This document shows positions 3,268 to 64,000 of a stretch of 64,000 bases of DNA, piece after piece; positions within the stretch are counted from its first letter, which is position 1, and every line of letters starts with the position of its first letter. Below the pieces are notes generated by a model. That model had not been told where the DNA came from. It ran no database searches and worked only from the letters and a program-made list of their open reading frames with translations. The position numbers were made by a program, and so were the translations under genes. Source of the DNA: Desulfobacteraceae bacterium (lineage in GTDB: Bacteria > Desulfobacterota > Desulfobacteria > Desulfobacterales > Desulfosalsimonadaceae); assembly GCA_014237465.1 (NCBI GenBank), contig JABZFM010000026.1, positions 1 to 64,000 on the forward strand, written 5' to 3'.

Positions 3268-3284
3268 AAGCATTCCTTGACAAA

Positions 3285-3428
3285 CTCGTAAAAAGTCAGA
3301 CTCCGATGGCAAAGTATAAAAGTTCAAATTTAAGGCGCGCAAATTCTGAGTAATGATTCGTACTTAACGTACTTTGAAGAAACGAAGAATGCAGCGCAAC
3401 GCAAAAGTTGGACTTTTTACAAAGCCAT
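3285..3428 (+). repeat. Interspersed repeat copy 1 (short type), between sdhC and sdhA
   Basis: About 144 bp. The ends are inverted repeats sharing GTAAAAAGTC (CTCGTAAAAAGTC at left, GACTTTTTACAAAGCC at right). The inner part has GATGGCAAAGTATAAAAGTTCAAATT, GGCGCGCAAAT and GAAGAAACGAAGAATGCAGCGCAACGC, shared with copies at 8421, 8889, 32114 and 63076. It is non-coding and lies inside the operon, supplying the sequence just upstream of the sdhA ribosome binding site. Confidence 0.9.
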
Positions 3429-3438
3429 CATTCCTTAA

Positions 3439-4080
3439 TTACATGATAAAACTTACATACACAGGGATAAAACCGAATCCGGCGGCGGCAAGCAGGCTGA
3501 ATATAACTCCCATCCCTTTAATTGCCGGCATATACTTGGGATGATTGGCCCCAAAAGTCTGGAAAAGACTCCAGAAACCATGACTGATGTGAATTGCGAC
3601 AATAATTACAGCGAAAGTATAAAAGATCACGTAAGGTAGCATGGAAAATGTCGCGTCAATCGCCTGGAATACCGTTTGCCGGGAATGATCGATAAAATGG
3701 AAATTTAATAAATGTATCACCACAAAGATTAAGATTAATACACCCGTATACGGCATGGTTGCGGATCCGATGGTGCGCCCGCCGGCATTCTTACTAACCT
3801 GATATCGTACCGGCCGGGCCTGCAGATTCTGCCAGAACAGGATTAAACCGGAGGAGACATGAATGGCAGCAAATGCCAGCAAACCGAGCTCAGCGATGCG
3901 AATCAACGGACCTAAAGCATGAAGGTGTTCAACATATGACAGGAACAGACCTTTCCCGCCATAAAGTGTTAAATTGCCGATTAAATGAATTAACAAAAAC
4001 AGACAAAACCCAAGGCCGGTAAGCGCCATCAGCAACTTCTTACCGATTGAGGACCGAAGCATGTTAAAAAACCAATTCAT
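3439..4080 (-). CDS. sdhC: Succinate dehydrogenase/fumarate reductase cytochrome b558 subunit
   Basis: A 213-residue integral membrane subunit that binds heme and the quinone and anchors the SdhAB heads. Five hydrophobic helices can be traced, and His residues within or near them (for example LIHLIGN, AAIHVSSG, VVIHLLNFHF, AIHISHGFW) are candidate heme ligands. This matches the single-polypeptide b558 family rather than the two-subunit SdhCD type. The ATG at 4080 is preceded by GGAG at eight bases and gives MNWFFNML; the upstream ATG seven codons earlier lacks a better site. It is the first gene of the sdhCAB set, with a repeat between it and sdhA, and lies downstream of sucCD. Confidence 0.9.
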   Translation of the reverse strand: MNWFFNMLRSSIGKKLLMALTGLGFCLFLLIHLIGNLTLYGGKGLFLSYVEHLHALGPLIRIAELGLLAFAAIHVSSGLILFWQNLQARPVRYQVSKNAGGRTIGSATMPYTGVLILIFVVIHLLNFHFIDHSRQTVFQAIDATFSMLPYVIFYTFAVIIVAIHISHGFWSLFQTFGANHPKYMPAIKGMGVIFSLLAAAGFGFIPVYVSFIM

Positions 4081-8339: not shown

Positions 8340-8420
8340 TGGAATCTCCTCATTAATATCGTGTGACATATAAATAAATTTTGAACGTCTGAAACGTTAC
8401 AAATTTTTGATTAAATATTG

Positions 8421-8568
8421 ATGGCTTCGTAAAAAGTCCAACTTCTGCGTTGCGCTGCATCTTTCGTTTCTTCAAAGTACGAAAAGTACGAATCATCACT
8501 GACGGATTTGCGCGCCTTGAATTTAAACTTTTATACTTTGCCATCGAAATCTTACTTTTTACGAGTTT
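8421..8568 (+). repeat. Interspersed repeat copy 2 (short type, inverted relative to copy 1)
   Basis: About 148 bp starting ATGGCTTCGTAAAAAGTCC and ending CTTACTTTTTACGAGTTT, in the opposite orientation to the copies at 3285 and 63076. It lies between the 80-residue small subunit gene and the biotin-subunit gene. Any open frames through it (such as one reading [11 protein letters not shown]) are by-products of the repeat. Confidence 0.9.
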
Positions 8569-8613
8569 ATCAATATTGTTTTGTAATAAAAAAATACTTA
8601 AAAGCACTGATGA

Positions 8614-8856: not shown

Positions 8857-8888
8857 ACTATCCTCAATTTATCTTTTGATTAAATAAG

Positions 8889-9044
8889 ATGGCTTTGTAA
8901 AAAATCCAACTTCTGCGTTGCGCTGCATCCTTCGTTTCTTCAAAGTACGAAAAGTACGTATCATCACTGACGGATTTGCGCGCCTTGCCAATTTTATAAG
9001 ATTGGTGAACTTTTATACTTTGCCATCGAAATCTTACCTTTTCA
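8889..9044 (+). repeat. Interspersed repeat copy 3 (long type)
   Basis: About 156 bp starting ATGGCTTTGTAAAAAATCC. It contains the extra 18-bp inverted segment CCAATTTTATAAGATTGG (8988-9005) also present in the copy at 63076 but missing from the short copies. Its right inverted end is degraded (CTTACCTTTTCAAGG). It ends about ten bases from the stop codon of the 12S-type gene. Confidence 0.88.
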
Positions 9045-30691: not shown

Positions 30692-32113
30692 ATGGCTATT
30701 GAATTACACCAAACGCTTCGACTTCAACAACAGTTGGTTATGACGCCTCAGCTTCAGATGGCGATTAAACTTCTGCAGCTTTCAAAACTTGAACTGGTGG
30801 AAATGATACAGCAGGAGATTGAAACCAACCCGACACTGGAGGATTCTCGGGAAATTTCCACTGATGAAGATATTGATAGAAGCGATAGTGAGCCCTTAAG
30901 AACAAAGGAAGTCTCAATCGATGAAAAATTTGACAATTACCTGGACTGGCATCACTATATTGACGAATTTAATTCCACCGGTAAAATTCATTTTGAAAGT
31001 GAAAGAAAAGAAGCGCCGGACCTTGAGGCGTTCACAACAAACAAAACGTCGCTTGCCGATCATCTCCGCTGGCAGCTTTTGATGACGCAGCCTTCCCCTG
31101 AAGATGAAGAAATCGGCAGCCAGATCATTGGAAATATAAACAAGGATGGTTATTTAGACATTTCAGTCGAAGATATCGCTGAGATCAGCAATTATTCACC
31201 AGAAAAGATTCGCCAGGTTTTGTCACTGATTCAGTCATTTGATCCGCCGGGTGTTTGTGCAGCAGACCTCAAGGAATGCCTGTTACTGCAGACCAGACAT
31301 TTAGCGATTGAAAATCCACTGATTAATGACATTATCCGCTTTCATATTAAAGAGCTTGAAACCAAACGATATAAAGTTATTGCCAAATCATTGAAAACCG
31401 ATATCAACAGCGTGATATCTGCGGTTCAGTTTATCAAAACCCTTGACCCAAAACCGGGTGACAAATTTAATGACGACCATCTTATCTATATCACACCGGA
31501 TGTCTATGTTCATAAAGAAGGAGATGATTATTTAATTTTGTTAAATGATGATGATATGCCAAAACTGCATATTAATTCGTATTATAAAAAAGCTATTCGC
31601 CGGGGTGAAAAAATTGCTGACGAAACAAAGGCCTATTTAAAAGACCGGCTTCGTTCGGCTGAATGGCTGATAAAAAGTATTCATCATCGCCGTAAAACCA
31701 TATATAATGTCATGGAAAGCATTATTAAATTTCAGCGGGACTTTTTTGATCATGGCATTGACCATCTTAAACCAATGGTGCTCCGGGATGTTGCAGATGA
31801 TATTGAAATGCACGAATCCACCATCAGCCGGGTAACCAACAACAAATATGCGTATACCCCCCAGGGAATTTTTGAATTAAAATTCTTTTTTAACAGCTCC
31901 ATTAACTGTTCAAACGGCGGCTCTATAGCATCAGCGAGTGTTCAGGAAAAAATAAGAAAACTCATTGAAAGTGAAAACCATAAAAAACCTTACAGTGATA
32001 AAAAAATTACGGAAGTTTTAGAAGCGTCTGATATTCACATTGCCAGACGCACTGTCGCAAAATACAGGGAAATGATGGGGATTCTACCTTCGAGTAAACG
32101 TAAACAATTTTGA
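30692..32113 (+). CDS. rpoN: RNA polymerase sigma-54 factor
   Basis: A 473-residue sigma factor. Region I is Gln/Leu-rich (LHQTLRLQQQLVMTPQLQMAIKLLQLSKLEL), the core-binding region follows (EEIGSQIIGNINKDGYLDISVEDIA), and the C-terminus has the helix-turn-helix and the RpoN box (IARRTVAKYREMMGI). It directs RNA polymerase to -24/-12 promoters with activators such as the regulator at 20243. The stop codon touches the left end of an interspersed repeat that separates it from hpf. Confidence 0.96.
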   Translation: MAIELHQTLRLQQQLVMTPQLQMAIKLLQLSKLELVEMIQQEIETNPTLEDSREISTDEDIDRSDSEPLRTKEVSIDEKFDNYLDWHHYIDEFNSTGKIHFESERKEAPDLEAFTTNKTSLADHLRWQLLMTQPSPEDEEIGSQIIGNINKDGYLDISVEDIAEISNYSPEKIRQVLSLIQSFDPPGVCAADLKECLLLQTRHLAIENPLINDIIRFHIKELETKRYKVIAKSLKTDINSVISAVQFIKTLDPKPGDKFNDDHLIYITPDVYVHKEGDDYLILLNDDDMPKLHINSYYKKAIRRGEKIADETKAYLKDRLRSAEWLIKSIHHRRKTIYNVMESIIKFQRDFFDHGIDHLKPMVLRDVADDIEMHESTISRVTNNKYAYTPQGIFELKFFFNSSINCSNGGSIASASVQEKIRKLIESENHKKPYSDKKITEVLEASDIHIARRTVAKYREMMGILPSSKRKQF

Positions 32114-32256
32114 CGGCTTCGTAAAAAGCCCAAATTCTGTGTTGCGCTGCATCCTTTGCTGCTTCATAGTACGCTAAGTACGAATCATTGCTCAGGATTT
32201 GCGCGCCTTGAATTTGAACTTTTATACTTTGCCGTCGAAATCTAACTTTTAACGGG
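32114..32256 (+). repeat. Interspersed repeat copy 4 (short type), between rpoN and hpf
   Basis: About 143 bp starting CGGCTTCGTAAAAAGCCC and ending CTAACTTTTAACGGG, with the shared inner parts (GTGTTGCGCTGCATCC, GGATTTGCGCGCC, ACTTTGCCGTCGAAATC). It is somewhat more diverged than copies 2 and 3 (for example TGCTGCTTCATAGTACGC). It lies in the normally tight rpoN-hpf junction and directly abuts the rpoN stop codon. Confidence 0.9.
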
Positions 32257-32284
32257 ACTATCGATTTTTAAGGAGGATTAATTT

Positions 32285-52613: not shown

Positions 52614-53036
52614 ATGAAACGTGAGGAACAAAAGAATACTGTCATGTATACCATTTCCGAGCTTGCAGATGAATTGGATATCAGCACCCGGGCGATCCGT
52701 TTTTATGAAGAAAAAGGCCTGATTTTACCAAAACGGACAAAAGGGAACCACAGAGTCTATAACAAAAGGGATCGCGCCAGATTAAAACTGATATTAAGAG
52801 GGAAAAGGCTGGGGTATTCCCTGGAAGAAATCTCTGAGATGATAGGGTTGGCAAACTTTAACATGGAAGAAGAACAGCAGCTGAAAAAAACTTTTACGTA
52901 CGGGAAAAAAAAATTAATAGAAATCAATGAACGGATGCAGGAGTTGCAAATCCTAAAAGAAGATCTTCTGGCGATACAACAAAAAATATCAAACCGGATG
53001 GAAGAGCTTAAAATCAAGAATTCATGTTTAACTTAA
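52614..53036 (+). CDS. MerR-family regulator
   Basis: A 140-residue regulator with an N-terminal winged helix (YTISELADELDISTRAIRFYEEKGLI) and a long C-terminal dimer helix (residues about 85-135). No metal-binding Cys cluster is visible. GAGG lies before the ATG. It is 23 bp upstream of an enoyl-CoA hydratase gene and resembles the MerR regulators of acyl-CoA/fatty-acid degradation genes, so regulation of the nearby acyl-CoA genes is likely. Confidence 0.87.
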   Translation: MKREEQKNTVMYTISELADELDISTRAIRFYEEKGLILPKRTKGNHRVYNKRDRARLKLILRGKRLGYSLEEISEMIGLANFNMEEEQQLKKTFTYGKKKLIEINERMQELQILKEDLLAIQQKISNRMEELKIKNSCLT

Positions 53037-53059
53037 GATAAAATTTTGGAGATAATTTA

Positions 53060-53782
53060 ATGTCGATTATTGAATGGGAAAAAGATGAAACAGTTGCCAT
53101 TATCAAATTAAATAACGGAGAAAACAGGCAGAACTTAGAATTTGCTCAAACATTAAGCCGTATTCTGGATAAAATTATAGAGGATAAAAGTATAACCGCT
53201 GCCGTTATAACTTCCACAGACCCAAAATGCTGGTCGCTTGGTGTTGATATTGACTGGCTCGGCAAGCAGTTTCAGGAACAAAGCTTAGATAACATAAAAA
53301 ATTTTATGTATGAAATGAATAATGTCTTTAAAAAACTTCTTTTATTACCAATCCCTGTCATAGCTGCCATCAACGGCCATGCGTTTGGCAACGGAGCAAT
53401 TTTATCCTGCGCCTGTGATTTCAGGTTTATGAAATCAGATCGCGGGTATTTCTGCTTTCCTGAAGTCGACTTAGGGATCCCTTTTCTCCCGGGGATGATT
53501 GCCTTTGTTAAAAAAGCGATTCCGGGATATAAGTTTAATGAACTTAAACTTACCGGTAAAAAAGCCGGGGCAGCCGAACTTGCCGAAAGTCACGTCATTG
53601 AAAAAGCATGTGCCGATGCTGATGAACTATTAAACAAATCAATTTCGTTTGCACGGGCATTTAATAAAAAAAGAGGGATATTTAAAGAACATAAAAAAAG
53701 AATGCACAAACAGATTATTCAGGTGATTGATACAGAAGATAAAGAGTTCATTGAACCTATATTTCTGATGGTTCAGGATTAA
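53060..53782 (+). CDS. Enoyl-CoA hydratase/isomerase family protein
   Basis: A 240-residue crotonase-fold protein. The oxyanion-hole segments are CWSLGVDIDWL and GHAFGNGAILSCACDFRFM, and FPEVDLGIPF has the second acidic residue. Only one of the two catalytic Glu positions typical of hydratases is clearly present (the first is in the AFGNGAI loop, with no Glu), which fits an isomerase (plant/peroxisomal ECI-like) rather than a true hydratase. GGAG precedes the ATG; it likely shares a transcript with the MerR gene. Confidence 0.85.
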   Translation: MSIIEWEKDETVAIIKLNNGENRQNLEFAQTLSRILDKIIEDKSITAAVITSTDPKCWSLGVDIDWLGKQFQEQSLDNIKNFMYEMNNVFKKLLLLPIPVIAAINGHAFGNGAILSCACDFRFMKSDRGYFCFPEVDLGIPFLPGMIAFVKKAIPGYKFNELKLTGKKAGAAELAESHVIEKACADADELLNKSISFARAFNKKRGIFKEHKKRMHKQIIQVIDTEDKEFIEPIFLMVQD

Positions 53783-53810
53783 TAACCACTAAAAAAATAT
53801 CGGAAAAAAA

Positions 53811-53850
53811 AAGGGCGCTTAGTCAAATCGACAAGCGCCCTATTTTATTT
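53811..53850. terminator. Bidirectional terminator between convergent genes
   Basis: Stem GGGCGCTT (53813-53820) and AAGCGCCC (53833-53840) with T-rich sequence on the right and A-rich sequence on the left, so it can end both the plus-strand enoyl-CoA isomerase and the minus-strand TetR transcript. Confidence 0.85.
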
Positions 53851-53876
53851 ATGAGATACTGCAGTCAAGCACCGGA

Positions 53877-54494
53877 TTAAGTAAATGCGGTTATATTGAA
53901 AAATTTGAGGGTCTCTTTTGCGGCCTTGATATATTCTTCCCGCTCCATTTTCATCATGGGGCGGAAAAAATTTTCACCGGAAACAAAATTGTGTATCGCG
54001 TTCATAATCGATAAGACTTTCATCTTGGCATCCGCCGGGACATTCTTCCGGTCTTCGGCCAGCCCCATGGAATAGGCGATATCCGATATATATTCGGGCA
54101 CCTTGAAGTCCAGGATATTGCCGTGACGCGTTTTTGTAAAATACCGGAACAGGGTCAGGTTAGAGATTTCCGGATGTTCAAACAAATAATCCGCCATCTT
54201 ATCAATTGCAATACGAATCCTTTCAGCAAGCGGCCTGCCTTTGATAATTTTTTCAACCTCTATCAATTTCTGACGCATGCCTTCGGTGATGTCCATTACA
54301 ACCGCCTCATACAGATCACCCTTTTCTCCCCAGTGATAATACAGGGTGGATATATCAATTTCGACAGCTTTTGCAATCATCCGGGTGGTAGTTCCATGAA
54401 AACCATACTCACCGAATATTTTCCGGGCGGCTGTAAGAATTTTTGCTTTCATCGAGTCCGGATTCTGCTTTGCTTTCTCAAGTGATGATGCCAT
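53877..54494 (-). CDS. TetR-family regulator near acyl-CoA genes
   Basis: A 205-residue TetR protein. The helix-turn-helix is YGFHGTTTRMIAKAVEIDISTLYYHWGEKGDLYEAV. The C-terminal domain is helical. GAGG lies eight bases before the ATG. It is transcribed with the CoA-transferase gene (54575) upstream, 80 bp apart, and faces the fusion-gene operon across the IS, so it may control acyl-CoA degradation. Confidence 0.88.
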   Translation of the reverse strand: MASSLEKAKQNPDSMKAKILTAARKIFGEYGFHGTTTRMIAKAVEIDISTLYYHWGEKGDLYEAVVMDITEGMRQKLIEVEKIIKGRPLAERIRIAIDKMADYLFEHPEISNLTLFRYFTKTRHGNILDFKVPEYISDIAYSMGLAEDRKNVPADAKMKVLSIMNAIHNFVSGENFFRPMMKMEREEYIKAAKETLKFFNITAFT

Positions 54495-54574
54495 TAATTT
54501 TGCCTCGCAATTTAATCATATTCCAAAATTTTAAAATTCAAATAAAATCAATTTCTTTACCCTGAGGATGATGG

Positions 54575-55723
54575 CTAAATAACCCCCTGCTTCTCAAATT
54601 CATTTATTTTCTCATCCGAATAACCAAATTCTTTGAGAACTGTATTTGTATTTTCTCCAAACGCCGGCGGTATCGTTCGCACGGATCCCGGCGTGTCGCT
54701 TAACTTCACCGGGACACCTAAAAATTTCACCATTTTTCCGTTTGAATCCTTTAAATCCACGACCATCTCTCTCTCTTTAAACAAAGGGGCTTCCATTGCC
54801 TCATCAAGACTTCTGACCGGCCCCCAGCAGATATCAAGTCCATCAAGTTCTTTACACCATTTATCAAGAGTCTTTTGCTTAAACTTTTGTTTTACAAAAT
54901 TTATAATTTCAATTCGTTTGACATCATCATACTGCAAGGCAATATATTCCGGTTTATCAAAATAATTACACAGATTCTTCCAAAATCTGTTCTCTACCGC
55001 ACCAATAGATAAGTAGCGTTTATCCGCTGTCTCATATGTATTGTAACAGGCATACCGGTGGGACAAAAACGAATCAGAACGATTCACCGGCAGACCGATG
55101 AACTGCTTTAAGCTCAACACCAAAGAAAGTAAACTCATGGATCCGTCGGTCATGGATATGTCGATATATTGCCCCTTACCGGTTTGTTCCCTGGCGTACA
55201 AAGCTATCAAAATGCCGATTGCGGCATTCATCCCCCCACCCGCCAGGTCCGCAATCTGGATTCCCGGAATCGATGGAGGACGGTCCTTTTCACCAATCAG
55301 GTCTAAAACTCCTGCCACACTCAAATAATTCACATCATGTCCGGCTTCATCTCTATACGGACCGGTCTGCCCGTAACCGGAAATGGAACAGTAAATAATT
55401 TTTGGATTTATTTTTGAAACCGACTCATAATCTACCCCTAAACGCTTGGTAACACCCGGACGAAATCCTTCAAGAATAATATCCGCCTTTTCGGCCATAT
55501 TAAAAAAAATTTCCCGGCCTTTATCTGATTTCAGGTTTAACGTGATATGTTCTTTATTTCGTAACACGGTAAAATTACCCCCCGCTTCACCAGCATATCG
55601 CTTATCTTCAATTGCGATAACCCTTGCACCATGATCTGCCAGAATCATTGAGCAAAAAGGCCCCGGCAATAATCGGGACAAATCCAGTACCGTCAATCCG
55701 TTTAATGCGCCATTTTTATTCAT
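54575..55723 (-). CDS. CaiB/BaiF CoA-transferase family, alpha-methylacyl-CoA racemase-like
   Basis: A 382-residue family III CoA-transferase fold protein. The N-terminus is GLTVLDLSRLLPGPFCSMILADHGARVIAIED. The stretch GPYRDEAGHDVNYLSVAGVLDLIG with His-Asp, followed by GIQIADLAGGGM, is typical of alpha-methylacyl-CoA racemases (His126/Asp156 pair in the mycobacterial enzyme) rather than of CoA-transferases. A racemase would change the 2-methyl configuration so branched acyl-CoAs can enter beta-oxidation. GGAG precedes the ATG. It lies before the TetR gene, divergent from the fusion operon. Confidence 0.82.
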   Translation of the reverse strand: MNKNGALNGLTVLDLSRLLPGPFCSMILADHGARVIAIEDKRYAGEAGGNFTVLRNKEHITLNLKSDKGREIFFNMAEKADIILEGFRPGVTKRLGVDYESVSKINPKIIYCSISGYGQTGPYRDEAGHDVNYLSVAGVLDLIGEKDRPPSIPGIQIADLAGGGMNAAIGILIALYAREQTGKGQYIDISMTDGSMSLLSLVLSLKQFIGLPVNRSDSFLSHRYACYNTYETADKRYLSIGAVENRFWKNLCNYFDKPEYIALQYDDVKRIEIINFVKQKFKQKTLDKWCKELDGLDICWGPVRSLDEAMEAPLFKEREMVVDLKDSNGKMVKFLGVPVKLSDTPGSVRTIPPAFGENTNTVLKEFGYSDEKINEFEKQGVI

Positions 55724-55922
55724 ACCGTCTCCATAAGCAATTCATAGTTCTGTCAAATTTGTTTTGTATTTTTTCTTTTAACTGCTTTAATTACAGTAGG
55801 TTATTGAAAAACCTATTCTCTCCCTATTTTTTTATGAGTTAAGCGTTTAAAATGTATGCGAACCTAATGTTTGTGAATGCTCTCGTCTAAAAAAACAGAC
55901 AACAAAAAAAGGCTCGCATACA

Positions 55923-57389
55923 ATGAATCATTCCTTAATAAAAATTGTTAAATGGTTTTGCCGTCGACTAAATTTTAATGAACTTGCTTCTGCAGTGGTC
56001 ATTTTCCATGAGGTCCTGAGCGGTTCAAGGAGTGACATCCCTCTCAAACCCAATGAAAAACCGCCTCACTATCGAGAATTCCGTATTGATACCCTTTCGC
56101 CTTTACCCACCTCAGTAAAAGATACTGCAGACACGGTCCCTGACTGGAAAAAACTTAAAACTGATAAAGAACTTAAAACCGGAAAAATAATTACGCCGAT
56201 TCAATTTCGAAATGGCAAAAAGCCGCCAATTGGTTGTAAGTGCAGCCACTGTAATGCACCCAGACAATATCTGTATGTGAATAATGGCAAAATACAATCC
56301 CAGGTAAAATGTAAAATTTGTGGGAAAACAAGTCCTACCCACGGCAATAAACGAAAACCAAAGGCAAAGTACCGGTGCCCCTACTGCTCAAGCGCTCTTT
56401 TCAAATGGAAAGAAAGTCAGCAAAGTACGATTTTCAAGTGCCCGAGTTATTCTTGTGGACACTATCTGCGTAATAAAATGATTCTTACAGACGAAGAAAA
56501 AACCATGCGAAGCCTGCAAAAATATAACCCTAATTTTAAACTTCACTATCAATACAGGGAATATCACATCTCTGCCGATGATCTGAAATCAGCACGACCG
56601 GTCTCAAATACAAAAGTCGACTTGTGTAAAATCCATCATAGCTACCACACATTAGGACTTGTCCTGACTTTTACAATAAACCTCGGACTCAGCTCCAGGA
56701 CGACCAGAGATGCCCTGAAAGGTATTTTCGATATCTCCCTTTCTCATCAGACCATCATCAATTACATTAATTCCTCAGCCAGCTATTTATCCACTTTCAT
56801 TGATGACAACTGCCCCATCCCCCAAAGTACATGCTCTGCAGATGAAACATACATCATTGTTGATGGTAACTGGACATATACCTGGTTTATTATCGATTCC
56901 AAAACCAGGGCTATTTGCGGATATAATCTGTCTCAACATCGAGGTATGCAACCGGCACTGGCGCTTTTATACAATTGCTTTGGAAAGCCTAATGAACTCG
57001 CAACACATCCGGATCTGATTACAGACGGCAATCCCTCTTACGATGCGGCTGTTATGGCGTATAATGATTTGATTAAAAACGATGATAGCAAGCTGATAAA
57101 ACGCACTGTTATCGGCTTAAAGAATTTAGATGAAGAAAGCCGCGAATACCGAAGTTTTAAACAGCTTGTTGAACGGCTGAATCGAACCTATAAATATCAC
57201 ACCAGGCCAAGAGCAGGGTTTAAAACATTTGATGGTGCCGTAGCCCTTACAACGCTATTTATCGCATACTATAATTTCATGAGGCCACATAGCACATTAA
57301 AATCCACGCCGGTATCTTTGGACTCACTTCGCGAATCTCATCTCATGCCGGAGAAGTGGGTTACCCTAATCGAGCAAGCGGCAGCTTGA
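55923..57389 (+). CDS. DDE transposase with N-terminal zinc ribbons
   Basis: A 488-residue transposase. Two zinc-ribbon-like motifs (CKCSHC...CKIC at about 100-130 and CPYC...C at about 150-180) precede a DDE catalytic core: first Asp in SADETYIIVDG, second in LITDGNPSYDA, and Glu in LVERLNRTYKYHTRPR. The core resembles IS6-family/integrase-like DDE enzymes, but the long N-terminal zinc region and length of 488 are unlike IS26 types. The frame is complete with no frameshift, so it is probably functional. Confidence 0.85.
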   Translation: MNHSLIKIVKWFCRRLNFNELASAVVIFHEVLSGSRSDIPLKPNEKPPHYREFRIDTLSPLPTSVKDTADTVPDWKKLKTDKELKTGKIITPIQFRNGKKPPIGCKCSHCNAPRQYLYVNNGKIQSQVKCKICGKTSPTHGNKRKPKAKYRCPYCSSALFKWKESQQSTIFKCPSYSCGHYLRNKMILTDEEKTMRSLQKYNPNFKLHYQYREYHISADDLKSARPVSNTKVDLCKIHHSYHTLGLVLTFTINLGLSSRTTRDALKGIFDISLSHQTIINYINSSASYLSTFIDDNCPIPQSTCSADETYIIVDGNWTYTWFIIDSKTRAICGYNLSQHRGMQPALALLYNCFGKPNELATHPDLITDGNPSYDAAVMAYNDLIKNDDSKLIKRTVIGLKNLDEESREYRSFKQLVERLNRTYKYHTRPRAGFKTFDGAVALTTLFIAYYNFMRPHSTLKSTPVSLDSLRESHLMPEKWVTLIEQAAA

Positions 57390-57466
57390 ACTCTCAAATC
57401 AGATTGTCAAAGAACAAAAATTAAAAGCATTTAAAGTAAAATTAAACCCGTTCGTTATGGCGACGA

Positions 57467-57534
57467 GCAAAAAAAGCATTCTGTGCGAGAATGGGCCCCT
57501 TTTCGCTCGTCGGAGCACAGAATGCTTTTTTTGC
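57467..57534 (+). terminator. Long perfect hairpin at the 3' end of the insertion sequence
   Basis: A 20-bp perfect inverted repeat (57467-57486 and 57515-57534) with a 28-base loop; the stem carries A7 on the left and T7 on the right, so it can act as a bidirectional terminator. The loop itself holds an imperfect GCGA...TCGC pairing. It could also protect the IS from outside transcription. Confidence 0.75.
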
Positions 57535-57594
57535 GCTCCTGCATTTAGCATCACACTTTCATAATAAAATCACTTTTCATAAAAATTTTGACAG

Positions 57595-58096
57595 TTCCCA
57601 ATTCATGTTAAATCGTTTATCGAAAAATTAAATAGATATGAAATCATCAATAATATGATCAGAGATTCAATATATATCAAACCCCAATCCTCAATCAAAC
57701 GATTGATTCCATCAAATGTTTGAAACACTATTATAATTTTCGCTCGTACAAGTCAATATCGTTTTTATGATTCATGATGTATCAACATACAGAAACAGTG
57801 TGTCAGAGATTAACCTTTTAAAATTACATAGTTTAATAAAGATTTAAAAAAAATAAAAAAACTTTTGACAGCCATAAAAAAAGAGCCTATGATTTCCCCA
57901 TCATTTGTTGGAATAAATTGATTAGGAAAATAGGTGAATAAAATGCATCATTATTATTAACATGATAGCAATATTAACATTATTCTCGATCCCAGCTCCC
58001 TATCCTTTCAGAACTCAGGATAAAACTGAAATTTATCTTGAAGCAAATATCGAATCCATCTCAAACCTTAAATTATTAGACAAGGAGGAGTAAAAA
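57595..58096. other. Intergenic region upstream of the fusion operon
   Basis: About 500 AT-rich bp between the IS and the first fusion gene. It must hold the promoter of that gene, if not in the IS. A possible -35/-10 pair cannot be defended by eye. The only clear site is AAGGAGGAG before the 58097 start codon. Confidence 0.45.
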
Positions 58097-60205
58097 ATGG
58101 CGCTTAACCTGGATGCAGTCGGGAAGAAGCTCGGCCCGGTTTCCAAAGATTACAACTGGAAAGATGTCGTGTTATATGCTTTGGGGGTGGGAGCCGGTTT
58201 TTCGGATCTTGACTATTGTTATGAAAAAAATTTAAAGGTAATCCCTAGCTTTTCGATTGCCTCAATTTTCGAGTTCCTGTCCCATTACGCTGCAAATTCC
58301 GACATCAATCTTGCCGGGATTCTTCACGGTGAGCAGGATCTCATCTTTCATAATCCGATACCCACTGAAGGCACCCTGATCACCGAAGGTAAAATCACCC
58401 ATATGTATGACAAGGGTGAGAAAGGTGCCCTGGTGATCGGTGAAAGTGACACATTCCATTCTAACGGGAAAAAACTTTTTACAAGTATAGTAACCATCTT
58501 CAGCCGTCTGGATGGTGGTTTTAACGGCGAAAAAGCACCCAAGGAAACCTTTGAATATCCGGACAAAAAACCAGACTTTGAGATAGATGCCTCCCCTACT
58601 TTAGATCAGCCGCTTATTTATAGACTTTCCGGCGATGTGTTTGCCCTGCATGTTGATTCGGAATTTGCAAAAATGGCCGGATTTGAAAAGCCGATCATGC
58701 ATGGATTGTGCACTTATGGGTATTCATGCAGAGCGCTCATTCAAAGCCTGACACCCGGCGAACCGGAAAAAGTGCGTCGCTTAAAATGCAGATTTTCAAA
58801 ACCCATATATCCGGGCGATCCAATTAAAACGCAGATATGGAAAATAGAAGATAACAAAGCCGTCTGGAAAACCATCAATGCCAAGACCGGTGAAGAAGTC
58901 ATCACAAACGGGATTTTTGAATTCGGAGACATTCCAAAAGATGAAATCCGTTTTGATGACCAGGTAGCCATTATCACTGGTGCCGGCGGTGGCCTGGGTC
59001 GAATTTACGCCTTGGAACTCGCAAAACGCGGAGCAAAAGTCGTTGTCAACGATCTGGGCGGTGCGAGGGACGGATCAGGAGAAGGATCTGCGACACCGGC
59101 ACAAAAAGTGGTCGATGAAATCAAGGCCCTTGGCGGTGAAGCAGTTGCAAACTATGACAGCGTTTCAACCCCTGATGGCGGTGAAAATATTGTCAAGGCA
59201 GCTCTCGATGCCTATGGAACAGTTGATATCCTGATTAATAACGCCGGCATTTTGCGGGACAAAAGTTTTATCAAAATGGAACCGGAAAACTGGCAGACCG
59301 TATTGGATGTTCATCTTACCGGTGCCTACAATGTCACAAAGCCCGCTTTCAAGGTTATGCGCGAAAAAGGCTACGGCAGAATTGTGATGACCACATCTGC
59401 TGCCGGTCTATACGGCAACTTCGGACAAACCAATTACTCATCAGCAAAAATGGGATTGGCCGGATTAATGAATACCCTGAAACTGGAAGGAAAAAAATAT
59501 AATATCAAGGTGAATACCGTAGCGCCCATAGCTGCATCACGCCTTACGGAAGATATTCTGCCCCCGGAACTGTTTGAAAAAATGAAACCGGAATTCGTAT
59601 CCCCTCTTGTCATGTATTTATGCTCCCAGGAATGTGACGCAAACGGCAATATTTACAATGCGGGCATGGGTTTCTTTAACCGTGCTGCAGTTGTTACCGG
59701 CTCCGGTACAACCATCGGTGATGGCGTAAATCCACCGGAAATCGAAGATGTGGTCGATAATTTTGATGCCATTGCTTCATTGAAAAACGGGAAAGTATAT
59801 TTTGAATTAAACGAACAGGTGGGTGATGCCATGAACGCATTTACCGCTCCGGCGCAACCGACCACCTCTTCCGATGAACAAAAAATTTCTTCCGTGTCTG
59901 CGATTTTTGAAGCCATGCCGAATGCGTTTAATGCGGAAGCAGCCAAGGATGTGGATGTTACCTTCCAGTATCATATTTCAGGTGACGGCGGTGGTGACTG
60001 GAACTGTATTATTAAAAACGGATCATGCACAATCGATTCCGGAACACATGAAAAGCCGACCTGTACGCTGAAAATTGCGGACACGGACTTTGTGGATATG
60101 ATTAACGGGGTTCTGCCGGCCATGCAGGCGTATACATCCGGTAAATTAAAAATCGAGGGAGACATCATGAAATCCCAGCTCATTGAAAAACTGTTTAAAT
60201 TATGA
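58097..60205 (+). CDS. Multifunctional beta-oxidation enzyme (hydratase 2 - SDR dehydrogenase - SCP2)
   Basis: A 702-residue fusion. Residues 1-285 are a double-hotdog MaoC-like hydratase 2 with the segment LSGDVFALHVDSEFAKMAGF and PIMHGLCTYG. Asp180 and His185 of the catalytic D-x-N-P-L-H motif are kept but Asn is Phe182 (D-V-F-A-L-H). Residues 287-590 are a 3-hydroxyacyl-CoA dehydrogenase SDR with TGAGGGLG (294-301), NNAG and the catalytic S-Y-K (YSSAK). Residues about 595-702 are a SCP2 lipid-binding domain. The composition is that of peroxisomal MFE-2 but the order differs (in MFE-2 the SDR comes first). It should hydrate enoyl-CoA and oxidise the 3-hydroxy product. AAGGAGGAG precedes the ATG. 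Confidence 0.9.
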   Translation: MALNLDAVGKKLGPVSKDYNWKDVVLYALGVGAGFSDLDYCYEKNLKVIPSFSIASIFEFLSHYAANSDINLAGILHGEQDLIFHNPIPTEGTLITEGKITHMYDKGEKGALVIGESDTFHSNGKKLFTSIVTIFSRLDGGFNGEKAPKETFEYPDKKPDFEIDASPTLDQPLIYRLSGDVFALHVDSEFAKMAGFEKPIMHGLCTYGYSCRALIQSLTPGEPEKVRRLKCRFSKPIYPGDPIKTQIWKIEDNKAVWKTINAKTGEEVITNGIFEFGDIPKDEIRFDDQVAIITGAGGGLGRIYALELAKRGAKVVVNDLGGARDGSGEGSATPAQKVVDEIKALGGEAVANYDSVSTPDGGENIVKAALDAYGTVDILINNAGILRDKSFIKMEPENWQTVLDVHLTGAYNVTKPAFKVMREKGYGRIVMTTSAAGLYGNFGQTNYSSAKMGLAGLMNTLKLEGKKYNIKVNTVAPIAASRLTEDILPPELFEKMKPEFVSPLVMYLCSQECDANGNIYNAGMGFFNRAAVVTGSGTTIGDGVNPPEIEDVVDNFDAIASLKNGKVYFELNEQVGDAMNAFTAPAQPTTSSDEQKISSVSAIFEAMPNAFNAEAAKDVDVTFQYHISGDGGGDWNCIIKNGSCTIDSGTHEKPTCTLKIADTDFVDMINGVLPAMQAYTSGKLKIEGDIMKSQLIEKLFKL

Positions 60206-60206
60206 A

Positions 60207-60283
60207 GAAGGTAGAAGGCTGAAGGTAGAAGGTGGAAGGATTTATCTGAATATAAATTAATTTTTCCCTTCAGGCTTCAGCCT
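60207..60283. repeat. Short tandem repeat and hairpin between fusion genes
   Basis: Five copies of a 7-bp unit (GAAGGTA, GAAGGCT, GAAGGTA, GAAGGTG, GAAGGA) run from 60207 to 60240. The pair AGGCTGAAG (60216-60224) and CTTCAGCCT (60275-60283) can form a hairpin. It lies in the 122-bp gap between the two fusion genes; no gene is present. Confidence 0.7.
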
Positions 60284-60327
60284 AACAACCTGAAGATATT
60301 TGACCACAAACATAGAGGAGAAAAAAA

Positions 60328-63063
60328 ATGATTGGAATAACATCTTACGGTGCGTATATCCCCCGCTTAAGATTAAATCGTATGGCGATATTTCAAAGTA
60401 TGGGATGGTTCGCCCCCGCGATAATCATGGTGGCGCAAGGCGAACGTTCCATGTGCTACTGGGATGAAGACGCCGTCACCATGGCAGTTGCCGCATCACG
60501 GGATTGCCTTAAAGGCATGGACAAAACAAATATTGAAGGCCTGTTTCTTGCCTCCACTACGTTGCCTTTTGCCGACAGACAAAATGCAGGCATTGTCTCA
60601 ACAGCTTTGAATTTAAAAAACGATATCGTGACTTCTGATTTTACATCATCCCAGAAAGCGGGAACAAACGCCCTATTGACCGCAATCGAATCGGTTAAAG
60701 GCGGCGACAGGAAGAACATACTGGTGACGGCTGCCGACAAACGAGAAACCAAACCGGCATATTTTTATGAGATGTGGTTTGGTGACGGCGCTGCTTCATT
60801 AATGATCGGAGACCAGGATGTCGTCGCAGAGTACAAAGGCTCATATTCGGTATCATATGATTTTGTTGATCATTACCGGGGGGCGTTTAAAAAATACGAC
60901 TACACCTGGGAGGAACGCTGGGTTCGTGATGAGGGATATTCAAAAATTATTCCTGAAGCGATTAACGGTCTTTTACAAAAGCTCAACATCACCATGGAAG
61001 ATGTGGATAAAGTGGTTTATCCATGTTTTTTTAAAGCAGAACACAAAAAAATTGCTAAAAAACTGGGGGCATCTCCTGATAAAGTCATTGATAACCTTCA
61101 TGAAGTTTGCGGAGAAACGGGCGCCGCCCATTGTCTGTTAATGATGACTGCCGCATTAGACAATGCTAAACCCGGCGATAAAATCCTCATGGCCAGTTTC
61201 GGGCAGGGATGCAGTGCTTTTCTTTTTGAAGTTACGGAAAACATCAATAAACTGGAGCATCGAAATAAATTCCAAAAAACACTGGATAATAAGGAAACCA
61301 CAGACAATTATTTAAAATTTCTAAAATTCAGGGGATTAATTCATCCGGAAATGGGGATTCGCGCAGAAGCGGAAACCCAGACCGCAGTGACGACCCTGTG
61401 GCGAAGACGAAAAATGCTTCTTGGCCTTGTTGGCGGTAAATGCAAAGAATGCGGGACCGCGCAATTTCCAAAAAACGAGGTCTGTGTTAATCCGGAATGC
61501 GTGGCCAAACACAGCCAGGAGGAATATGAATTTGCCGATATTCCGGCCAAAGTCAAAACATTTACCGGAGACCTGCTGGCAGTTTCCGTTGATCCGCCCC
61601 ACAAATACGGAATGGTTCAGTTTGAAGGCGGTGGCCGGTTCATGGCTGATTATACAGACTGCACCCTGGAAGAGTTAAAGGTCGGACTGCCGGTGCAAAT
61701 GGTTTTTCGAAAACGGAATGATGATGAAGAAGAACGCGGATTTGTCAACTATTTCTGGAAAGCAGTGCCGGTTCCAGGCGCCTTAGAAGAAATGAATAAA
61801 ATTAATTACAACGACCGCGTTGCCATCGTGACCGGTGCAGGTGGCGGTTTGGGGCGGGTTTACGCTCTGGAACTTGCCCGGCGAGGAGCAAGCGTGGTGA
61901 TTAATGATCTCGGAGGCGCCAGGGACGGGTCTGGTGAAGGCTCCAGTTCTCCGGCAGACATTGTCGTTAAAGAGATACAGGAATTCGGCGGTAAAGCAGT
62001 GGCTAATTATGATAATGTTGCCACAGCAGAAGGCGGTGAAAACATCGTAAAAACAGCATTGGATGCCTTCGGCCGGGTGGATATCGTCATCAATAACGCC
62101 GGTATTTTACGGGACAAGAGTTTTATCAAGATGGAACCGGAAAACTGGGCCGCAGTTCAGGCCGTTCATTTAAATGGTGCGTATCATGTCACCAAACCTG
62201 CATTCAAGGTTATGAGAGAAAACGGGTTCGGCCGTATTATTATGACCACATCTGCCGCCGGTTTGTATGGAAATTTTGGACAAACCAACTATTCATCCGC
62301 CAAAATGGCGCTTGTTGGCCTGATGAACACATTAAAGCTGGAAGGCGCAAAATATAATATTAAAGTTAACACCATCGCCCCGCTGGCCGGATCACGGCTG
62401 ACCGAAGACATCATGCCGCCGGATTTGTTTGAAAAATTGAAACCCGAATTTGTTTCTCCTATCGTATTATATCTTTGCAGCGAAGAGTGTGCTGAAACCG
62501 GTAAAATTTTCAATGCCGGCATGGGATATTTTAACCGAGCCGCAGTAGTGACAAATTCAGGCGTTCAACTGGGTGACGCGGACAATCCGCCCACACCGGA
62601 ACAGATCATTGAAAACATCGATAAGATCAATGATATGGAAGGCGCTAAAGAATATAATGACTTAAATTCCGCCATGTTTGACTTAATGTCTCCGCCCGCC
62701 TCGGATGCGACAAAGGACGACAATGGTGACGGACCTTCCGGCGATTTAAATGTTTCTGATGTTTTTGATAAAATGCCGGATGCATTCAATCCGGATGCAG
62801 CAAAAGGCGTTGATGTCACATTCCAGTATAATATATCCGGAAAAGCAGGCGGTGAATGGATTGTAACAGTTAAGGACGGTACATGCAAAATTGAACCCGG
62901 AAAAGCAGACAAACCCACCTGTGCGTTAAACATAGGTGATGCAGACTTTATCGATATGATTTCCGGAAAACTGGATCCAATGAAAGCGTTTACATCCGGC
63001 AAGCTGACCATTGATGGTGATGTAATGAAATCCCAGCTTATTGGAAAACTGTTTAAGATGTAA
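60328..63063 (+). CDS. Four-domain fusion: HMG-CoA-synthase-like, DUF35 (zinc/OB), SDR dehydrogenase, SCP2
   Basis: A 911-residue protein. Residues 1-340 are a thiolase-fold HMG-CoA-synthase-like domain (MIGITSYGAYIPRLRL...). The archaeal catalytic motifs are altered: Glu position is Thr77 (ASTTLP), the nucleophile Cys position is Gln109 (SSQKAGT), and no FHxP His motif is seen near 231-240. Residues about 355-485 are DUF35 with zinc Cys372, 375, 386 and 391 and an OB-fold. Residues 494-790 are an SDR (TGAGGGLG, YSSAK) nearly identical in motifs to that of the 58097 protein, and about 800-911 is SCP2. Genome neighbours and DUF35 suggest it acts with the next thiolase. AGAGGAG precedes the ATG. 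Confidence 0.88.
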   Translation: MIGITSYGAYIPRLRLNRMAIFQSMGWFAPAIIMVAQGERSMCYWDEDAVTMAVAASRDCLKGMDKTNIEGLFLASTTLPFADRQNAGIVSTALNLKNDIVTSDFTSSQKAGTNALLTAIESVKGGDRKNILVTAADKRETKPAYFYEMWFGDGAASLMIGDQDVVAEYKGSYSVSYDFVDHYRGAFKKYDYTWEERWVRDEGYSKIIPEAINGLLQKLNITMEDVDKVVYPCFFKAEHKKIAKKLGASPDKVIDNLHEVCGETGAAHCLLMMTAALDNAKPGDKILMASFGQGCSAFLFEVTENINKLEHRNKFQKTLDNKETTDNYLKFLKFRGLIHPEMGIRAEAETQTAVTTLWRRRKMLLGLVGGKCKECGTAQFPKNEVCVNPECVAKHSQEEYEFADIPAKVKTFTGDLLAVSVDPPHKYGMVQFEGGGRFMADYTDCTLEELKVGLPVQMVFRKRNDDEEERGFVNYFWKAVPVPGALEEMNKINYNDRVAIVTGAGGGLGRVYALELARRGASVVINDLGGARDGSGEGSSSPADIVVKEIQEFGGKAVANYDNVATAEGGENIVKTALDAFGRVDIVINNAGILRDKSFIKMEPENWAAVQAVHLNGAYHVTKPAFKVMRENGFGRIIMTTSAAGLYGNFGQTNYSSAKMALVGLMNTLKLEGAKYNIKVNTIAPLAGSRLTEDIMPPDLFEKLKPEFVSPIVLYLCSEECAETGKIFNAGMGYFNRAAVVTNSGVQLGDADNPPTPEQIIENIDKINDMEGAKEYNDLNSAMFDLMSPPASDATKDDNGDGPSGDLNVSDVFDKMPDAFNPDAAKGVDVTFQYNISGKAGGEWIVTVKDGTCKIEPGKADKPTCALNIGDADFIDMISGKLDPMKAFTSGKLTIDGDVMKSQLIGKLFKM

Positions 63064-63075
63064 TAAAATTTATAC

Positions 63076-63235
63076 ACTCGTAAAAAGTCAGATTTCGATG
63101 GCAAAGTATAAAAGTTCACCAATCTTATAAAATTGGCAAGGCGCACAAATCCTGAGTGATGATTTGTACTTTTCGTACTTTGAAGAAACGAAGGATGCAG
63201 CGCAACGCAGAAGTTGAACTTTTTACGAAGCCATC
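63076..63235 (+). repeat. Interspersed repeat copy 5 (long type), before the thiolase gene
   Basis: About 160 bp from ACTCGTAAAAAGTCAG to CTTTTTACGAAGCCATC, in the same orientation as copy 1. It contains the 18-bp CCAATCTTATAAAATTGG segment shared with copy 3. It lies between the four-domain fusion and the thiolase, 13 bp after the fusion stop codon. Confidence 0.92.
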
Positions 63236-63270
63236 AAAATTGATTGCCATTATAAATAGGAGGATTAATC

Positions 63271-64000
63271 ATGGCTACAGGAATAAAGGATAAGGTTGCA
63301 ATCATCGGTATGGGATGCACCAAATTCGGCGAACGCTGGGATGTGGGCGCTGAAGAACTGATGCTCGAGGGTTATGAAGAATGCCTGGCGGACGCCGGAA
63401 TTGAACAAAATGATATTGATGCCGCATGGTTTGGCACCTGTATGGATGAGGTTAATGTGGGTAAAACCGCCATGCCCCTTTCCACGACACTTCGGCTCCC
63501 CATGATTCCGGTAACCCGTGTGGAAAACTATTGCGCCAGCGGGACTGAAGCATTTAGAGGCGCCTGTTATGCGGTTGCATCCGGCGCTTACGATATTTGC
63601 CTGGCACTGGGCGTGGAGAAATTGAAAGATACCGGTTATGGCGGATTGCCCGGGGCAGGCTCAAACGCCGGTACCCTTCTCTGGCAATGGTGGCCGAACC
63701 TGACCGCACCGGGCTCTTTTGCACAGCTTGCAAGCGCATATGCCGCAAAATATAAAGTAAAAGACGAAGATTTGAAGCGGGCCATCGCGCACATCTCGGC
63801 AAAAAGCCATGCGAACGGCGTATTGAACCCCAAAGCCCATCTTCAAAAGAAAATCACTGAAGATCAGATAATGGCCTCGCCGATTATTGCTCACCCGCTG
63901 GGTTTGTTTGACTGCTGCGGTGTCAGTGACGGATCGGCATGTGCCATCATCACCACACCGGAAATCGCTAAAAAAATGGGTAAAAAGGATTTTATATCCG
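63271..64000 (+). CDS. SCPx-type thiolase, truncated by the window end
   Basis: A partial thiolase-fold protein (243 complete codons). It starts MATGIKDKVAIIGMGCTKFGERW, with AGGAGG seven bases upstream of the ATG. The nucleophile Cys88 is in VENYCASGTEAFRGACYAVASGAYD, and ALGVEKLKDTGYGG, NGVLNPKAHLQKKIT and DGSACAIIT follow, as in SCPx and DUF35-associated thiolases. The C-terminal His/Cys motifs lie outside the window. It should cleave the 3-ketoacyl-CoA produced by the upstream fusions. A zinc OB-fold (DUF35) partner is expected for this class and is supplied in the upstream fusion. Confidence 0.9.
   Translation, partial: MATGIKDKVAIIGMGCTKFGERWDVGAEELMLEGYEECLADAGIEQNDIDAAWFGTCMDEVNVGKTAMPLSTTLRLPMIPVTRVENYCASGTEAFRGACYAVASGAYDICLALGVEKLKDTGYGGLPGAGSNAGTLLWQWWPNLTAPGSFAQLASAYAAKYKVKDEDLKRAIAHISAKSHANGVLNPKAHLQKKITEDQIMASPIIAHPLGLFDCCGVSDGSACAIITTPEIAKKMGKKDFIS

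Follow-up and report, generated by a model that had tools for sequence, protein, structure and literature searches.

An HMG-CoA-synthase-like domain without catalytic residues, fused to DUF35, dehydrogenase and SCP2 domains, as a probable dock for the thiolase of a putative beta-oxidation operon

The first 64,000 nucleotides of contig JABZFM010000026.1 from a Desulfobacteraceae bacterium (assembly GCA_014237465.1, forward strand), here referred to as the window, contain at 60328-63063 (+ strand) an open reading frame for a fusion protein of 911 aa. An HMG-CoA synthase (HMGS)-like domain is followed in it by DUF35, a short-chain dehydrogenase/reductase (SDR) and an SCP2 domain; translation and the Pfam and NCBIfam profiles bear out this order, which had been proposed earlier from the DNA alone (the original prediction). 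The HMGS-like domain and DUF35 probably form a dead dock, which joins a 3-hydroxyacyl-CoA dehydrogenase and a lipid carrier to the thiolase of the next gene in beta-oxidation. As far as residues and gene order can be read from the sequences, the HMGS-like domain has lost its catalytic Cys, Glu and His, the SDR and the thiolase are intact at their catalytic residues, the zinc-binding Cys are present and the gene order is conserved.

Residues 1-338 (60328..61341, +) are assigned to the HMGS/KAS III-like domains by NCBIfam and Pfam, by alignment to the archaeal HMGS 6esq_I and by the predicted fold. In the sequence alignment the nucleophilic Cys is replaced by Gln109 (codon CAG, 60652..60654, +; motif S-Q-K-A-G-T), the general-acid Glu by Thr77 (60556..60558, +) and the catalytic His by Pro232 (61021..61023, +), which agrees with the original prediction of Gln for Cys, Thr for Glu and a missing His motif. 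Position 232 is Pro in 87 of the 88 fusions compared with it. The scores against the models for archaeal HMGS stay below the curated cut-offs (216.3 vs 244 bits for NF003274 and 156.8 vs 353.35 bits for TIGR00748). An AlphaFold2 model of residues 1-480, with a predicted local distance difference test (pLDDT) of 93.1 and a predicted template modelling score of 0.93, has the HMGS fold and places Gln109 in the turn preceding helix 111-125. The structure nearest to it is that of the archaeal thiolase/HMGS/DUF35 complex (6esq_I: Z 48.6 over 334 residues, root-mean-square deviation 1.6, 28% identity), so that the kinship to this complex, which had been suggested before, is supported by alignment and fold. 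In sequence as well as fold, PhlA, archaeal HMGS and the HMGS-like subunit of MucABC come closest to it. A sequencing error at 60652-60654 was considered as well and is very unlikely, because 19 of the 20 other fusions from the same genus or family carry the same Gln and one reads N.

For comparison 134 other distinct HMGS-like domains were available, namely 69 HMGS-DUF35-SDR-SCP2 proteins, 19 HMGS-DUF35-SDR proteins (some cut) and 46 HMGS-DUF35 proteins (some cut); merging was restricted to identical domain sequences, which removed 15, and relatives from different searches may be the same organisms. Among the 88 other fusions, residue 109 is Gln in 63, Leu in 19, Ile in two, Met, Glu and Val in one each and unreadable in one (L015 reads N there and was excluded, which leaves 87). 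The 46 HMGS-DUF35 domains show 24 Leu, nine Gln, seven Ile, three Met and one each of Ser, Thr and Ala. Whether orthologues keep both Gln109 and Thr77 was a question of the original prediction: Thr77 is retained in 88/88 other fusions, Gln109 in only 63 of the 87 readable ones. The Asn site of the GN motif (263) is Glu or Asp in 88/88. On a quick tree (134 rows, with the window present twice) residue 109 changes six times between Gln and non-Gln. By the alignment, residue 109 varies like a site that catalysis no longer constrains, yet it is stable within clades.

Orthologues with a normal Cys at this position, which would have refuted the original prediction, were searched for. None was found in the 133 readable of the 134 domains. 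The named loci are the best 80 of 581 that two peptide patterns from this protein family picked out, and therefore that scan could not have found an ordinary HMGS with Cys. A less biased check was a search of 192 genomes of the class with the NF003274 profile, in which three matches exceeded the cut-off and 30 loci were read; Cys is likewise absent from these 30 domains, the window's own and other repeats among them. The three above the NF003274 cut-off of 244 are HMGS-DUF35 proteins (L159, L160, L161) that reach 303-318 bits, yet have Val at the position of the catalytic Cys; this model can thus name inactive proteins.

The other domains of the chain keep their functional residues. DUF35 (residues ~355-479; 61390..61764, +) consists of a zinc ribbon and an OB fold, in which Pfam places zf-ChsH2 at residues 367-391 and OB_ChsH2_C at residues 420-461, and it matches 6esq_E and PhlB; its four zinc Cys (Cys372, 375, 386 and 391) are invariant across 88 aligned sequences. 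The SDR domain (residues ~493-790; 61804..62697, +; Pfam/NCBIfam profile span 497-685), which we take to resemble the dehydrogenase of the peroxisomal multifunctional enzyme type 2 (MFE-2), has the Rossmann Gly503, 507 and 509 in 89/89 fusions and Ser642, Tyr655 and Lys659 in 87/87 readable ones of the 89. Judged by these glycines and the Ser-Tyr-Lys residues, it carries the features of an active dehydrogenase. The chain ends with the SCP2 lipid-carrier domain (PF02036, residues 821-910; 62788..63057, +).

Downstream follows the gene of a thiolase of 400 aa (63271..64000, +), which extends beyond the end of the window and was assigned through PRK06157 (711 bits, cut-off 403). It is closer to PRK06157, 7yvy and 6esq_A than to PhlC. 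Its Cys88 is kept in 74/74 sequences, and His296, Cys298 and His346 are kept wherever the residue is present (69, 68 and 68 sequences). Upstream lies the gene for a protein of the MFE-2 type (58097..60205, +; 702 aa), in which Pfam finds hydratase 2/MaoC, SDR and SCP2 domains. With distances taken from open frames and not from start codons, a thiolase frame is found within 400 nt downstream in 74 of 89 distinct fusions, the window included; 11 lack the room, and of the remaining four, three (L104, L126, L149) carry a thiolase frame in the locus that the distance rule missed, and L102 shows none. Within 500 nt upstream, 76/89 fusions have a gene with an SDR domain, eight lack the room, and the other five (L023, L116, L123, L133, L136) have a hydratase-2/SDR frame elsewhere in the locus.

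An inactive subunit has been described for PhlABC from Pseudomonas (PDB 5m3k, 5mg5), which resembles the fusion in having an HMGS-like subunit without Cys and Glu, a DUF35 partner and an active subunit of the thiolase fold (5mg5_A: Z 46.5 to the fusion model). PhlA has Gly115 and Cys83 at the places of Cys and Glu, only residues of PhlC are reported to contact the substrate or to act in acyl transfer, and PhlB bridges the PhlA and PhlC dimers in a layout also described for the archaeal complex (PMC6392133). The fusion points to an inactive subunit as in PhlA by the same combination of an HMGS-like fold without Cys and Glu, a DUF35 in the same chain and an adjacent thiolase with Cys88. In contrast to the fusion, PhlABC is made of separate subunits, performs a biosynthetic C-acylation, has Gly and not Gln at the nucleophile position and contains neither SDR nor SCP2. 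The archaeal complex shares the three folds, but Cys114 and Glu82 are present in its HMGS (cited in PMC6392133), it serves the mevalonate pathway and it also lacks SDR and SCP2. MucABC from Streptococcus macacae (PDB 9vbo, 9vbt) again has an HMGS-like subunit without Cys (9vbo_A has Glu opposite Gln109), however as a separate subunit of a biosynthetic system, for which C-3 acetylation is proposed (PMC10161427). In Shy/Sal and ChsH1-ChsH2/Ltp2, much as proposed for the fusion, an enzyme of the thiolase fold is tethered by a DUF35 that forms one chain with the enzyme acting just before it (PMC12329534); there a hydratase is paired with an aldolase, not a dehydrogenase with a thiolase, and no HMGS-like domain is present. 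The benzoylsuccinyl-CoA thiolase BbsAB of anaerobic degraders (PDB 7pxp) has a related thiolase subunit (136 bits) and a DUF35-type zinc subunit. It is not known to contain an HMGS-like domain or a fused SDR or SCP2. Peroxisomal MFE-2 and SCPx provide the same activities (hydratase 2, SDR, SCP2 and SCP2-type thiolase) in another domain order and pairing, and are not known to have a DUF35 or an HMGS-like domain.

From this comparison the following mechanism is suggested. The HMGS-like domain would be a catalytically dead scaffold (pseudoenzyme), which together with DUF35 would dock the thiolase of the next gene in the way of archaeal HMGS/DUF35 and of PhlA/PhlB in PhlABC. The rest of the chain would supply an active 3-hydroxyacyl-CoA dehydrogenase (the SDR) and an acyl carrier (SCP2). 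The last two steps of beta-oxidation, from 3-hydroxyacyl-CoA to 3-ketoacyl-CoA and on to thiolysis, would thus take place within one assembly, which may be fed by the hydratase-2/SDR/SCP2 enzyme of the preceding gene. The physical complex, its stoichiometry and the hand-over of substrate are what we infer; breakdown as the direction, the stereochemistry and the substrate class are likewise presumed. A purely structural role, one of two possibilities named in the original prediction, is supported by the lost catalytic residues and by the precedent of PhlA.

The SDR-SCP2 parts of the upstream partner and the fusion share 67% identity, and at the DNA level the two halves (58941-60198 and 61796-63056) are diverged duplicates with 67% and 71% identity over two stretches. 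In a tree of 56 SDR domains the two gene types do not form two clean clades (six changes, at least five of them forced by starred branches), and therefore a single old duplication is not supported by the tree. Judged by this tree, the neighbouring SDR copies may have undergone homogenisation or exchange. Fusion and thiolase genes are separated by a repeat of ~179 nt (63066-63244), which fills their spacer and resembles a miniature inverted-repeat transposable element (the similarity of its ends was judged by eye). Further copies are located at 3277-3450, 8414-8577, 8879-9042 and 32095-32268, and in the genome of origin 40 places out of 280 candidates were scored. Rfam gave zero matches at the gathering threshold in 53000-64000.

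On the other strand, the window encodes a TetR-family regulator (53877..54494, -; Pfam) and a CaiB/BaiF-family protein (54575..55723, -), possibly an alpha-methylacyl-CoA racemase according to its matches in the Protein Data Bank (PDB) and its motif. Against solved structures the latter scores 212 bits for racemases and 180 bits for the best CoA-transferase. The catalytic residues of the racemases are the His of the GHDxN motif and a following Asp; both are kept here (His129, Asp159) and in 14/14 linked homologues. Peroxisomes use racemase, hydratase 2, SDR, SCP2 and SCP2-type thiolase on 2-methyl-branched acyl-CoAs, and this may perhaps be the substrate class of the operon as well, which is a lead and not proof. 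Among the 56 fusion loci of at least 9 kb, acyl-CoA dehydrogenase is found near the fusion in 33, TetR beside the operon in 29 and CaiB near the fusion in 14 (the acyl-CoA dehydrogenase and TetR families were each named by Pfam on one representative), and acyl-CoA ligase genes also occur among the neighbours. A DDE transposase gene (PF13610, 55923-57389) separates the racemase-like gene from the operon in the window; in four other loci (L082-L085) no scored neighbour upstream of the operon is nearer than the racemase-like gene. A link to hydrocarbons was considered and is not claimed: of nine matches in the own genome that resemble pyruvate formate-lyase, two were scanned (matched part only) and fell below every NCBIfam cut-off. 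A further stretch of this genome (G000, contig C46, ~27-63 kb) has thiolase, SCP2 and DUF35 matches along with matches to a glycyl radical enzyme.

A match covering the HMGS-like and SDR parts was present in 52 of 146 genomes, the own one included, among the matches listed; this number is a manual reading of the listing, in which unlisted matches score far below the fusions, and two of the 52 have one internal stop codon. The fusion was found in 29/36 genomes of the same family vs 23/110 elsewhere in the order, again among the matches listed. Within the best 80 of 581 loci it also occurs in Desulfosarcina alkanivorans, D. widdelii, Syntrophales and Desulfomonile. Metagenome-assembled genomes of Chloroflexi and Nitrospirae (L155, L158) have HMGS-DUF35 only, and the frames of another member of the Chloroflexi (L145) and one of the Phycisphaerales (L134) are cut at the end of the contig or locus.

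The second possibility named in the original prediction was a decarboxylase of the KSQ type. The thioester carbonyl would then be stabilised by Gln109 as CO2 is lost from a malonyl- or beta-keto-type substrate. Gln at the nucleophile position in 63/87 readable other fusions would suit this, and the structure of Escherichia coli FabH C112Q (9ka5) is among the fold matches; against it, 24/87 fusions have Leu, Ile, Met, Val or Glu instead, Leu is the commonest residue of the HMGS-DUF35 class (24/46), the His position is Pro in 87/88 and the Asn site Glu or Asp in 88/88 other fusions. A KSQ enzyme depends on its Gln, and the known ones also on their His residues. Because Gln is exchanged for aliphatic residues within the same architecture, with six changes on the tree, and the His is gone, such a decarboxylase is unsupported and we regard it as highly improbable. 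A re-invented active site in the HMGS-like domain, which would use for example Cys233, Glu263, His258 or His268, is somewhat less improbable, though still unlikely. Cys233, His258 and His268 are identical in 89/89 fusions, Cys233 adjoins the lost His position and is found in 43/46 HMGS-DUF35 domains, and Glu/Asp263 replaces the Asn of the GN motif; on the other hand His258 is present in just 19/46 and His268 in 29/46 of these domains.

The two remaining alternatives concern the reaction of the whole system. With PhlA and the MucABC subunit so near to it in sequence and fold, a biosynthetic C-acyltransferase of their kind could be suspected; such a function is very unlikely, since the neighbours (hydratase, SDR, SCP2, acyl-CoA dehydrogenase, acyl-CoA ligase and CaiB family) suit breakdown and PhlC is a more distant match of the thiolase than PRK06157, 7yvy and 6esq_A are. 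That the partner of the thiolase fold is a retro-aldolase of the Sal/Ltp2 type has hardly any probability in our view, even though the DUF35-tethered enzymes of this fold in steroid side-chain breakdown are aldolases (PMC12329534). Sal has a YDCY motif (PMC12329534), whereas the partner has Cys88 in 74/74 sequences and HDC and GHP wherever the residue is present, and the SDR in the same chain would produce the keto substrate that a thiolase requires.

Several observations weigh against the inactive dock in beta-oxidation or parts of it. Gln109 is constant in the genus and family of the window (19/19 readable, one more unreadable), and therefore Gln may have a role of its own in this clade. HMGS-like domain and thiolase can be paired without the fusion, because 46 relatives are HMGS-DUF35 proteins without SDR (five of them run up to the end of their stretch), and SCP2 was not seen in 19/88 other fusions, partly through contig ends. 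The full-length AlphaFold2 model is poor (pLDDT 62.9) and unusable. The CaiB-family protein has its best NCBIfam match in a CoA-transferase model (200.6 bits vs a cut-off of 700). In Shy/Sal, the tether caused no significant channelling, and 93% of the product was captured by added enzyme (PMC12329534); proximity therefore need not mean transfer, and hand-over is not to be assumed. The wider proposal that the three genes form one peroxisome-like beta-oxidation assembly of anaerobic bacteria, in which thiolase and dead HMGS would have one acyl-CoA cavity in common and branched acyl-CoAs would travel from site to site on the SCP2 arms, is tentative and rather doubtful.

Already in 2010 a structure paper reported that thiolase-superfamily, SDR-related, SCP2 and hot-dog domains occur as fusion partners of DUF35 homologues and called PhlA inactive; the section concerned does not describe the four-domain order found here (PMC2954200). 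No paper on a four-domain HMGS-like/DUF35/SDR/SCP2 protein was found in the literature searched, which was mostly open-access. The statement of the original prediction that no protein of this form had been described thus holds, within that literature, for the exact four-domain protein and its operon, which are new, and not for DUF35-SDR/SCP2 fusions or for an inactive PhlA, which are already known.

The inactive HMGS dock, so far a matter of antibiotic biosynthesis (PhlABC, MucABC), would thereby be extended to what is apparently a beta-oxidation module shared by many sulfate-reducing bacteria and their relatives. The names in databases are affected too, as HMG-CoA is probably not produced by those members of this family that carry the name HMG-CoA synthase. 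Since the enzyme of the preceding step belongs to the dock itself, the fusion would offer a natural test of acyl-CoA channelling by DUF35-tethered assemblies. If the peroxisome-like assembly is real, it would be an analogue of the trifunctional enzyme built from unrelated parts.

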